Source of the DNA: Microscillaceae bacterium | GTDB lineage: Bacteria > Bacteroidota > Bacteroidia > Cytophagales > Microscillaceae | DNA length: 64,000 nucleotides | Assembly (NCBI GenBank): GCA_025054775.1 | Contig: JANWZA010000051.1 | Span: forward strand, 1-64,000 | Reading direction: 5' to 3' | Part shown: positions 45,046 through 49,450 of the stretch, piece after piece | Position numbering within the stretch: position 1 is the stretch's first letter | Layout: each line of letters starts with the position of its first letter | Translations under genes and position numbers: made by a program | The notes under the pieces: generated by a model | The model's input: the letters and a program-made list of their open reading frames with translations, nothing else | Told to the model about the DNA's origin: nothing | Databases searched by the model: none

Positions 45046-46191
45046 TTATTCCTTTTCACTTTGCAAAAGTTGAGCGTGCAAATAATAAGCACCTTTTTTT
45101 ACAAATTGAGGATTTTCAGGCAATTCTTCTAAGGGAATAATTTGCACAAACCCCTTTTCTTTGTTTTGCAATTTTACTCCTATCTTTTGAAATGTGTACG
45201 GTTTTACTTGTACGAAAACATAGTACAAATCGCCTTCGCTTACAATAGCCTCTTCGGGCAAGCCATTTACCTCGTGGGCTTCTGTCCAAATATTCGCATT
45301 TACGAACATGCCTTCCATAAATTTCTCTTCTTTTTCTTTATCAAAGTGTGCATGAATGCCGATGGTTTTGCTTTGTGGATTAAAAGATTTTTCAATCAAA
45401 TACACTTCTCCTTCGTATTCTTGGTTTCCTAAGGAAGGAACTTGGAAGGTAACCTTCTGCTTGGGTTTAATTTGTAGCACGTCTTTTTCAAATACTTGCA
45501 ATTCAAGATGTTTGTGGTCGGTATTTATAATTTCAAATAAAGGTGTATTAGGGAGAACATTTTTACCCAAATTGATATGCACCGCTTTCACGTATCCAGC
45601 AATAGGCGAAGTAATATTGATTACCGTTTTTAGGTTTTGAGGGGAAACTTGTGTAGGCTCGATACCTAAGAGTTGGAGTTGTCGTTCTAAACTTGCTTTT
45701 TTAGCTTTTATGATTTCAAATTCACTCTGAATTTTTTGTAAATTTTTCACTGCGTTTACATTTTCTTGGGCTAAAAGCCGTTGGCGTTCGAGGTCTTGTT
45801 CTAAAAATTGATATTCGCTTTTAGTGATTAAGTAATTTTCTTGTAACTTTACAAATTGAAAATGCTCTAATTGTGTGAGGAGTTGCCCTTTTTGCACGAA
45901 TTCTCCATTCAAAATATCCAAATATTTTACAAAACCCTCTACTTGCGAAGAGACGATAGCTTTGGCATTAGGCGGCACGTCTATCACCCCATTAGCTTTG
46001 ATACTTTTACCAATATAATGCTTTTCCCAAGTGCCAATTTCTAATCCAATGGCTTTTTGTTGGGCTTCTGTCAAGGTAATGATTTTTTCGTCTTTTACTA
46101 ATTTAGTTTTTTCATCAATAGAGTCTGTCAATTTTTGACAAGCGGTAGTAGCTATAAAGAGTAAAAATGCTGTTTTGCAGTGTATTGTCAT
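45046..46191 (-). CDS. RND efflux periplasmic adaptor (CusB/HlyD family)
   Basis: A 381-residue adaptor (membrane fusion) protein with an N-terminal signal (TTACQ; Cys near residue 18 may be lipidated), a barrel-sandwich hybrid (about 70-100 and 190-220, with SSQVEGFVKYLDILNGEFV), a short helical hairpin (about 105-180), and a beta-barrel plus membrane-proximal domain. It is of the CusB-type, usually joining an RND pump (CusA) to a TolC-like channel for metal or drug export. Neither pump nor channel gene is next to it; upstream is the divergent sigma gene, downstream nadE. Substrate is unknown. Confidence 0.85.
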   Translation of the reverse strand: MTIHCKTAFLLFIATTACQKLTDSIDEKTKLVKDEKIITLTEAQQKAIGLEIGTWEKHYIGKSIKANGVIDVPPNAKAIVSSQVEGFVKYLDILNGEFVQKGQLLTQLEHFQFVKLQENYLITKSEYQFLEQDLERQRLLAQENVNAVKNLQKIQSEFEIIKAKKASLERQLQLLGIEPTQVSPQNLKTVINITSPIAGYVKAVHINLGKNVLPNTPLFEIINTDHKHLELQVFEKDVLQIKPKQKVTFQVPSLGNQEYEGEVYLIEKSFNPQSKTIGIHAHFDKEKEEKFMEGMFVNANIWTEAHEVNGLPEEAIVSEGDLYYVFVQVKPYTFQKIGVKLQNKEKGFVQIIPLEELPENPQFVKKGAYYLHAQLLQSEKE

Positions 46192-46547: not shown

Positions 46548-47159
46548 ATGAAAGAAACAAAAGCACTAAAAGATGATTTATTAGATATAGACTCTCCTCA
46601 TGCTTGGCAAACTATTATAGAGCAAAGCATAGAGGGTAATCCTTCGGCACAAAAGAAAATATATCAAAGTTTTTACACGTATTCTATGAGCATATGTTTA
46701 CGCTATGCTACCAGCAAAGCAGAAGCCCAAGAGATAATGAACGACGGCTTTCTTAAAGTTTTTCGTAATTTACATACTTACGACCATAGTAAGCCGTTTA
46801 AGATGTGGATACGGAGAATAATGATAAATACTGCCATAGATTATTTCAGAAAACGTAAAGAAGATATATTTTCGCTAGATGTGCAAGAGGTTCGCTATGT
46901 CCATAGTCATGAAGCTACAGGTCTTGACAATATCTCTGCCGAAGAGATATTAGAAATGGTGCAAAACCTTACACCTGCGTGCAGGATTGTCTTTAATTTG
47001 TATGTAATAGAAGGATATAATCACAAAGAAATTGCTGAAAAATTAGGCATCTCAGAAGGAACTTCCAAATCTAATTTAGCCAAAGCACGGCAAAAATTAC
47101 AAGCTATGCTTGCTAAAGCAGCTAATGGACAAAACTATAAGCGTATAAGCGATGAATAA
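46548..47159 (+). CDS. RNA polymerase ECF sigma factor
   Basis: A 203-residue sigma-70 family ECF factor. Region 2 (about 45-105) includes AEAQEIMNDGFLKVFRNL and MWIRRIMINTAIDYFRKRK, and region 4 (about 140-190) includes LTPACRIVFNLYVIEGYNHKEIA and ISEGTSKSNLAKARQKL, the recognition helix-turn-helix. Its last 8 bases overlap the start of the next gene (47152-47159), so the two are coupled. This strongly suggests that the neighbouring protein controls it. Targets are unknown. It differs clearly in sequence from the other ECF factor in the window (11810-12430). Confidence 0.93.
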   Translation: MKETKALKDDLLDIDSPHAWQTIIEQSIEGNPSAQKKIYQSFYTYSMSICLRYATSKAEAQEIMNDGFLKVFRNLHTYDHSKPFKMWIRRIMINTAIDYFRKRKEDIFSLDVQEVRYVHSHEATGLDNISAEEILEMVQNLTPACRIVFNLYVIEGYNHKEIAEKLGISEGTSKSNLAKARQKLQAMLAKAANGQNYKRISDE

Positions 47160-48834
47160 AGAAGAGTACCACATATTGACATTTGAACAAGTTATTCAAG
47201 ATAAATTAAGCCAAATTCAGCCACCTTTTGAGCCTGAAGCCTGGGGCGCTCTAGAAGCCAAATTGTTTGCTTTAGCCCAAGAGATAGAAAATGCTCAAAA
47301 AGGGATTGATAATCTATTTGCAGAGAAATTAGCTCAGCTTTCCCCTGAATACGAGCCTTCGGCTTGGGAGGCTTTTGAGCAGAAGCTTGCCCTTGAAAAT
47401 GCTGAACTTGATGCATTCTTTGCAGAGAAACTAGCTCAGCTCGCCCCCGAGTACGAGCCTTCAGCATGGCAGGCATTAGAAGCAAAATTATTTGAGACAA
47501 CCACTGAAAAGCCTATCTTCTCAACAATCATTCCTCTATGGCGTTGGGCAGCAGCAGCTTGCTTACTCTTAGTGGGAAGTTGGCTATTAGCTAATTTGGC
47601 AAATTGGCTACCTAAAACAGCTAACAACTATGCCCAAACAAACCAACAAAAAAACACTATTCAACTTAATAAGCAATATCAACAAAAACAAGCAATTATA
47701 CCGCCTTTGCCACAAGAAACACTAGCCAATCAGAAAAAGCCAAAGGCTAATGACAAGATAAAAGCAAACATATCACTTATTGAAGAAAGTGATTTACAAG
47801 TGGTTAGTCAAACCTCTGATAACAACTCAAAGGGCAGAGCAACCATACCTACAAATATAAAAATAACAGAAAAAAACGACTTCATAATTAATAATTCTAC
47901 GGATATTGCACTTACAAAGTATAATCAAGAGGTGCAAAATTCTCAAATAGCTCAAAATAATCTATTAACATCGTTCGGACAAGCCTTACAACAACATTCA
48001 GATAAAAATAAAACAGATGAGAGTAATCAGCAGACTCACATTACTCTCAATCCTATGGCAGAAAGGTATATCTTAGAAACTTTGCAAATGCAGGGAAGCA
48101 TAGGAAATACAAACAAGAGCCAAGCTATGCATTATACCGAACATTTACCACACATACAAAAACCAGAACCATTAAGACGTAGATTTGCACCTTCGTTCAA
48201 AGTAGGGCTTTTAGGAGCCTGGGAAGCTAATCTTATTAAAAATAAAGACTACAAATATGTTCACTACGTAGCAGGAGGGCTAATGCCCGAGGTAAGAATT
48301 CTGCCCAAAATAGCTATTGCTACAGGTGCTATATTCAAATATATTGACTACAAACTATCAGAATTAACAAGTTTGGAAAAGATAAAAAATAAAATCGAAG
48401 AACCATATTCAGAAGCATTACGCATCAACTACATAACACAACCCGATGCCCCTGAAATTTTACTCTATAACCACGTGAATACCTTTGCTATAGATATTCC
48501 ATTGGAAATCAAATACGTTTCAAGGCAAAACAAAAAAACAGAGTGGTTTGTTTCAGCAGGTACGGTGGCTTCAGTATATATATACCAAACATTCTCCAAA
48601 GACTTACGCAAAGCTAATACTCACACGCGTCTCTTTTTGGACGTGAAAGATGCCGAGAAGCCTAATTTCTATTGGGGAGGCTTCCAAGTTTCGGCAGGAA
48701 TAGAACATCAGCTCTCTAAAAATCTATATTTAACCGTGAACCCTTACTTACGCATTCCATACACACGTATGGGTATAGAAGACGTATACAGTTATACACT
48801 CGGCTTGCGTACTTTCTTTTCAATAGGGTGGTAA
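47152..48834 (+). CDS. Putative anti-sigma-like repeat protein fused to an outer-membrane beta-barrel
   Basis: A 560-residue protein of no named family that I can assign. Residues 11-113 hold three copies of a helical motif F..EKLAQL.PEYEPSAW.ALE.KL (Trp at 31, 72, 106). A single hydrophobic helix follows (about 129-150), then a Gln/Asn/Lys-rich periplasm-like linker (about 155-340), and a C-terminal beta-barrel-like region (about 345-560, ending RTFFSIGW) like PorT/OMP barrel proteins. The gene overlaps the ECF sigma gene by 8 bases, so the N-terminus is probably a cytoplasmic anti-sigma region and the protein spans inner membrane to outer membrane. Copies 2 and 3 of the repeat are almost identical in DNA. 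This is an inference from layout. Confidence 0.6.
   Translation: MNKEEYHILTFEQVIQDKLSQIQPPFEPEAWGALEAKLFALAQEIENAQKGIDNLFAEKLAQLSPEYEPSAWEAFEQKLALENAELDAFFAEKLAQLAPEYEPSAWQALEAKLFETTTEKPIFSTIIPLWRWAAAACLLLVGSWLLANLANWLPKTANNYAQTNQQKNTIQLNKQYQQKQAIIPPLPQETLANQKKPKANDKIKANISLIEESDLQVVSQTSDNNSKGRATIPTNIKITEKNDFIINNSTDIALTKYNQEVQNSQIAQNNLLTSFGQALQQHSDKNKTDESNQQTHITLNPMAERYILETLQMQGSIGNTNKSQAMHYTEHLPHIQKPEPLRRRFAPSFKVGLLGAWEANLIKNKDYKYVHYVAGGLMPEVRILPKIAIATGAIFKYIDYKLSELTSLEKIKNKIEEPYSEALRINYITQPDAPEILLYNHVNTFAIDIPLEIKYVSRQNKKTEWFVSAGTVASVYIYQTFSKDLRKANTHTRLFLDVKDAEKPNFYWGGFQVSAGIEHQLSKNLYLTVNPYLRIPYTRMGIEDVYSYTLGLRTFFSIGW
47317..47500 (+). repeat. In-frame tandem repeat of 102 bases in the barrel-fusion gene
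   Basis: The 75-base core beginning TTTGCAGAGAAA occurs at 47317 and again, at 102 bases, at 47419, differing at a few positions, mostly synonymous. A third, more diverged unit lies upstream (47182-47268). It shows recent duplication within the putative anti-sigma region. Confidence 0.8.
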
Positions 48835-48835
48835 T

Positions 48836-49450
48836 TTATTCTTTGCAGTATTTCTCTACATAATTTTGCATTTGCGTATAACCTAAGATTTGGGCATTTT
48901 TCCAATCTTGGCAGGCGCCTTCTCGGTCAATCATTTTAAGTTTTACGTATCCACGGTATGCATATGCTTCAGCATATTGAGCATCAAGTGAAAGGGCTTT
49001 GTTGAAGTCAGCTACTGCTCCTTGCATATCGCGCATTTTAAGTTTGGCACGTCCACGTAAATAATAGAGTTCGGCTTTGTCAGGGGCAAAGCGTGTGGCT
49101 TTGGTAAAGTCAAAGGTAGCTTCTAGGTGCTTTTTTAAGCTATCTTTAACGATGCCTTTATATTGAAGATACAACGCTGATTGTGGGTTAAGTTTAGAGG
49201 CTTGGTTAAAATCGGAAAGGGCTTTGGTATATTTTTTTTGCAATAGCCGATAAATACCTCGCTTAGCTAACAATTCAGGATTTTTCTTATCCATTTCAAT
49301 AGCTTTTTTGATAGCTTTTTCTGCTTCTTTGTAGTTTCGGATTTGAAATTTTTGTTCGGCAATTTCTACCCAATTTTGAGATTTTACCTTAAAACTTTGG
49401 CACAAAGCCGAGCCTAATATAAAGCAAATAAATAGTCTATGTTTCTTCAT
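48836..49450 (-). CDS. Tetratricopeptide repeat protein (secreted or periplasmic)
   Basis: A 204-residue protein with an N-terminal signal-like stretch (about 1-24) followed by about four 34-residue TPR units from residue 28 to 185, ending in a short cysteine-containing tail (CQDWKNAQILG and CKE). TPR motifs mediate protein-protein contacts; no catalytic domain is visible. It is a single gene, convergent by one base with the barrel-fusion gene. Its partner and role are unknown. Confidence 0.75.
   Translation of the reverse strand: MKKHRLFICFILGSALCQSFKVKSQNWVEIAEQKFQIRNYKEAEKAIKKAIEMDKKNPELLAKRGIYRLLQKKYTKALSDFNQASKLNPQSALYLQYKGIVKDSLKKHLEATFDFTKATRFAPDKAELYYLRGRAKLKMRDMQGAVADFNKALSLDAQYAEAYAYRGYVKLKMIDREGACQDWKNAQILGYTQMQNYVEKYCKE

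Follow-up and report, generated by a model that had tools for sequence, protein, structure and literature searches.

Putative Dma-type anti-sigma protein with three tandem copies of its N-terminal motif, encoded beside an ECF sigma factor gene in a Microscillaceae bacterium

The window analyzed here is a 64,000-nucleotide stretch of a Microscillaceae bacterium genome (GenBank assembly GCA_025054775.1, contig JANWZA010000051.1, positions 1 to 64,000, forward strand). It carries an ECF-type sigma factor gene followed by a gene for a putative anti-sigma protein (Table 1), and the pair stands alone between a divergent and a convergent neighbor. The sigma factor was matched by Sigma70_r2 (2e-14) and Sigma70_r4_2 (1.5e-16) and was 40 to 52% identical to the sigma factors of relatives whose genes adjoin similar anti-sigma genes; with the Sig70_bacteroi1 model it scored 91.6 bits (cut-off, 126.4 bits), which leaves its group (ECF21 or other) undecided. 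As claimed in a preliminary description of this DNA, the last 8 bases of the sigma open reading frame, ATGAATAA, overlap the next gene, and an overlap with the sigma gene was likewise found in 72 of 83 long complete relatives.

Table 1. Features of the sigma/anti-sigma locus and its neighbors (positions within the window)
Feature	Position	Strand	Basis
Efflux adaptor precursor-like gene, divergent, upstream of the pair	45046-46191	-	Named by eye
ECF-type sigma factor, 203 aa, Das-like	46548-47159	+	Pfam Sigma70_r2 and Sigma70_r4_2 above cut-off
Sigma/anti-sigma gene overlap, 8 bases, ATGAATAA	47152-47159	+	Direct reading
Putative anti-sigma protein, 560 aa	47152-48834	+	Domain order and adjacency to sigma gene
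Motif copy 1, residues 11-39, Trp31	47182-47268	+	HMM, 26.1 bits
Motif copy 2, residues 52-80, Trp72	47305-47391	+	HMM, 31.7 bits
Motif copy 3, residues 86-114, Trp106	47407-47493	+	HMM, 30.6 bits
Predicted inner-membrane helix, residues about 122-152	47515-47607	+	Hydropathy and AlphaFold2 helix 122-152
Predicted disordered Q/N/K-rich tether, residues about 153-343	47608-48180	+	pLDDT and composition
Predicted 8-stranded outer-membrane barrel, residues 348-560	48193-48831	+	AlphaFold2 strands 348-559; structure comparison
TPR-like gene, convergent, ends directly after anti-sigma open reading frame	48836-49450	-	Named by eye

The preliminary description had proposed that a single chain joins three short helical repeats with a conserved Trp, one transmembrane helix, a long Gln/Asn/Lys-rich linker, and a C-terminal barrel of 8 to 12 strands beside the sigma gene, and each of these parts was recovered. 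The AlphaFold2 model (alignment of 40 rows) contained N-terminal helices, a membrane helix, a linker, and eight main strands, most of them above 90 pLDDT, and the membrane helix was the single hydrophobic helix by hydropathy. The tether of about 190 residues was 34% Q/N/K (whole protein, 22%), with pLDDT mostly below 50. In structure comparison, the barrel resembled OprF (4rlc; Z, 16.7; root mean square deviation, 2.0 Å over 132 residues), OmpA (9fzc; Z, 16.7), and OmpW (2f1v; Z, 16.5), and it is predicted to lie in the outer membrane. The Pfam family OMP_b-brl_2 matched the C terminus weakly (5e-4, below cut-off) and matched 29 of the 40 aligned proteins; a Pfam search for a FecR domain in the window protein found none.

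Nine genes with sigma-70 region 2 were found in the genome of the window. One of them (locus L030, contig C34) is a related second sigma factor, paired with a motif-bearing anti-sigma of its own, and there the arrangement is split over consecutive genes: the sigma gene, a single-motif membrane protein of 283 residues, and a separate OMP_b-brl_2 barrel protein of 308 residues. On contig C59 (L035:2259-3062, with a sigma gene upstream at L035:1684-2244) lies an unrelated membrane protein with three short tandem repeats followed by a membrane helix; its repeat pattern, read by eye, is VP..YF..L...I..RI, and Pfam and NCBIfam searches returned no match.

Homologues beside ECF genes were sought across Bacteroidota, as the preliminary description had suggested, and the same layout was found in many families. 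When related genomes were searched with the protein and a profile, it was recovered in other families of the order; within the class, the profile matched 72 of 395 genomes at an E value of 1e-10, matches that were inspected in part, and dozens of Bacteroidota genomes combined a barrel with overlapping sigma and anti-sigma genes, as in the window. Against the profile of its relatives, which includes the window protein itself as a row, the window protein gave an E value of 3.5e-140. A chance open reading frame at 47152-48834 was ruled out, because homologues across Bacteroidota keep the identical order of parts.

The Trp motif, about 30 residues long, is a shared N-terminal element that precedes the membrane helix and is conserved in proteins encoded next to sigma genes. 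With about 100 proteins searched, the three copies in the window gave E values of 3e-8 to 5e-10, and all three kept the core positions D/E, I/F, L, F/Y, W, L/F, and L. The closest relative of copy 2 is copy 3 and vice versa, whereas copy 1 is equally close to copy 3 and to the single copy of another locus (L002). Although copies 2 and 3 are 72% identical in amino acids, they are only 70% identical in DNA, and because of this low DNA identity an assembly duplication is unlikely. Between these two copies dN was 0.21 and dS was 2.5 (near saturation; Nei-Gojobori), and when their 26 base differences were placed randomly, none of 5,000 trials gave as few amino acid changes. Most differences between copies 2 and 3 thus fall at silent sites, which places both under purifying selection. 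Motif column 8 holds a basic residue in 80 of 91 single-copy relatives, whereas the window copies have Q, A, and A; with the basic residue absent from all three, sigma binding may therefore differ.

Copy number was compared across 104 distinct proteins encoded directly downstream of a sigma gene (80 loci found via sigma alignment plus earlier loci), a set that includes a few proteins other than anti-sigma factors (e.g., L082). With a threshold of 10 bits, one motif copy was found in 91 of these, none in 8, two in 2, and three in 3, the multi-copy proteins being that of the window and four from Saprospirales (L106, L124, L138, and L144); L124 had one more, at 9.0 bits. L131 and L141 (Saprospiraceae) had weaker second copies, and weak ones were seen by eye, with low HMM scores, in five Chitinophagaceae proteins (L116, L118, L120, L132, and L146); L118, a smaller protein and the only one of the five tested, had no Pfam barrel match. 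Judged by the motif search, three copies are the exception, and nearly all relatives have one. The tripled N terminus was also searched against 390 genomes of the order, where no close multi-copy relative was found; matches in two genomes (G271 and G337) spanned two copies, at loci without a sigma/anti-sigma pair. Tandem sigma-binding motifs in proteins of the Dma kind were not found described in the open-licence literature.

The sigma factors were placed in a maximum-likelihood tree, where the window sequence was sister to the single-copy locus L068 (support, 97/92). The six Saprospirales and Saprospiraceae multi-copy loci grouped as a clade (100/100), and a further clade (100/99) comprised the five Chitinophagaceae loci. 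Because the tree splits the multi-copy lineages into three, with single-copy lineages standing between them, it points to three separate origins of the multi-copy state, although loss elsewhere is possible and the copies in Chitinophagaceae have low scores.

Several observations bear on the motif as the probable sigma-binding part, as which we infer it from conservation and modeling. Two Cognataquiflexum loci, L076 and L078 (4493-5353), have a sigma gene followed by a protein with a motif-like N terminus (25 to 27 bits) that lacks the Trp. In L076, whose sigma gene was recovered in the same search, Pfam places FecR/FecR_C at the C terminus instead of a barrel, which suggests an exchange of the output domain with retention of the N terminus. 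A fusion model was built from the sigma factor and N terminus of a relative (L088) by reading through the natural stop between the adjacent genes, as a computational tether only; its alignment combined fused rows from adjacent in-frame genes with sigma rows, and the N-terminal part was covered by six fused rows. The Trp helix reached pLDDT 94 to 97, the connecting stretch was at about 50 or below, and pTM was 0.59. When the window protein was folded without sigma, its N-terminal helices had pLDDT of about 63 to 88. The apparently better order of the Trp helix in the presence of sigma is suggestive only, because sequence and alignment both differ between the models. Across 91 sigma-motif pairs (Neff, 74), the coevolution signal exceeded that of shuffled pairings, an excess that shared ancestry can also produce. 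The strongest coupling was between an R/K of sigma region 4, located in its last helix, and a D/E in motif column 4 (R-D in 66 and K-E in 12 of the 91 pairs), and column 4 is acidic in all three window copies.

A Dma protein, as the family is defined, carries a sigma-binding domain at its N terminus, then a transmembrane helix, a long disordered tether, and finally a barrel at its C terminus, and its gene lies beside an ECF21 sigma gene (PMC13088901, which cites Pardue 2024 PNAS as the founding paper). The window protein has this domain order and adjoins a sigma gene. Because domain order, barrel fold, and adjacency to the sigma gene match the published definition part by part, we regard it as very probable that 47152-48834 and the sigma gene form a Dma-type sigma/anti-sigma pair, the likeness being to that published description, and the pair likely works like Dma. 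At the inner membrane, the cytoplasmic N-terminal part of the anti-sigma protein would hold the ECF sigma factor, with the one helix as anchor, and the disordered tether would cross the periplasm to the barrel in the outer membrane. With a chain spanning from sigma to the outer membrane, damage to that membrane or failed assembly would free the sigma factor. The presumed sigma-holding motif was copied in tandem to three, and selection retained the copies; if each copy binds sigma, each envelope-spanning molecule may be able to hold more sigma or keep it off more tightly.

Multi-site holding of sigma, taken alone, is a tentative proposal, and we are similarly guarded about its wider form, in which at least three Bacteroidota lineages would have independently multiplied a sigma-binding motif of 30 residues, with each tethered sensor then holding several sigma factors and letting them go jointly. 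A single copy might instead bind sigma, probably the membrane-proximal copy 3, with copies 1 and 2 as a non-binding spacer or stalk. The one copy of the relatives aligns with copy 3, and AlphaFold2 joins the copies by long helices, yet the core positions are kept in all three copies and selection on copies 2 and 3 purifies their sequence, not length alone; we consider this arrangement possible but doubtful. Joint wrapping of one sigma factor by the three copies in a single tight complex (e.g., one on region 2 and one on region 4) is an idea we would entertain with some reserve. It fits the shortness of the copies and the dual interface by which class I anti-sigma factors bind ECF sigma factors according to the title of PMC7406223, but single-copy relatives seem complete with one motif, and near-equivalence of the copies is what one would expect if all recognized one and the same site.

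Binding of different sigma factors by different copies, with resulting cross-talk, appears improbable. The genome does encode the related C34 sigma factor and, for it, a separate motif-bearing anti-sigma, but that sigma factor branches far from the window sequence in the tree, and no window copy stands apart from the others in likeness to the C34 anti-sigma motif, the best six matches of each copy being the other window copies and copies from other species. It is more improbable still, to the point that we give it hardly any weight, that the product of 47152-48834 is no anti-sigma factor and adjoins the sigma gene for some other cause: although no curated anti-sigma model matched it above cut-off, adjacency and overlap are conserved across many families, and the same layout has been studied experimentally in Dma and in a Phocaeicola vulgatus pair. 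If multi-site holding is true, the array would set the threshold and the sharpness of the response. Proteins with one, two, or three motif copies offer a natural series for testing how the number of presumed sigma-binding sites on an envelope sensor shapes that response.

With RseA, the anti-sigma factor of sigma E, the window protein would share one membrane helix and a cytoplasmic sigma-binding part; RseA has a small periplasmic domain and is without an outer-membrane part, unlike what is predicted for the window protein. The Fec system (FecA/FecR/FecI) similarly conveys an outer-membrane event to an ECF sigma factor via an inner-membrane anti-sigma factor, but its receptor, anti-sigma, and sigma are separate proteins, whereas the predicted barrel and putative anti-sigma part of the window protein are one chain. 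Among the relatives of the window motif, L076 has a FecR C terminus in place of a barrel.

The preliminary description knew of no characterized system with this arrangement, a view that has to be given up, since Dma1 and Dma2 of Bacteroides thetaiotaomicron have this domain order (PMC13088901) and an equivalent layout was described in 2022 for the P. vulgatus sigma/anti-sigma pair M0N98_03761/03760 (PMC9308784). The suspected novelty of the envelope-spanning design falls with these descriptions. Deletion of dma2 increases vesicle numbers in a sigma-dependent manner (PMC13088901). An antibacterial protein that damages the envelope turns on the P. vulgatus pair, with sigma transcription up 33-fold, and the regulon becomes active when the anti-sigma gene of the pair is disrupted (PMC9308784). 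The same paper cites a similar pair of ECF sigma and anti-sigma factors, from Bacteroides fragilis, as responsive to oxidative stress. By description, the P. vulgatus pair is like that of the window in its large anti-sigma factor, encoded downstream of sigma, which is predicted to cross the periplasm and to have a barrel in the outer membrane; it differs in belonging to Bacteroidales, and repeat number is not described there. With Dma the window pair shares the probable sigma-binding N terminus, one membrane helix, the long tether, the barrel, and the adjoining ECF sigma gene, but it comes from a lineage distant from Bacteroides and has three N-terminal motif copies, repeats being unmentioned for Dma in the consulted text of PMC13088901. 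As a one-protein link from outer membrane to sigma factor is established, the value of the window pair is that of a new, distant example showing the spread of the layout. The new point is a probable sigma-binding part in one, two, or three tandem copies, apparently of separate origins: against these known systems, the tripled motif is the new aspect, and the envelope-spanning anti-sigma design is already known.
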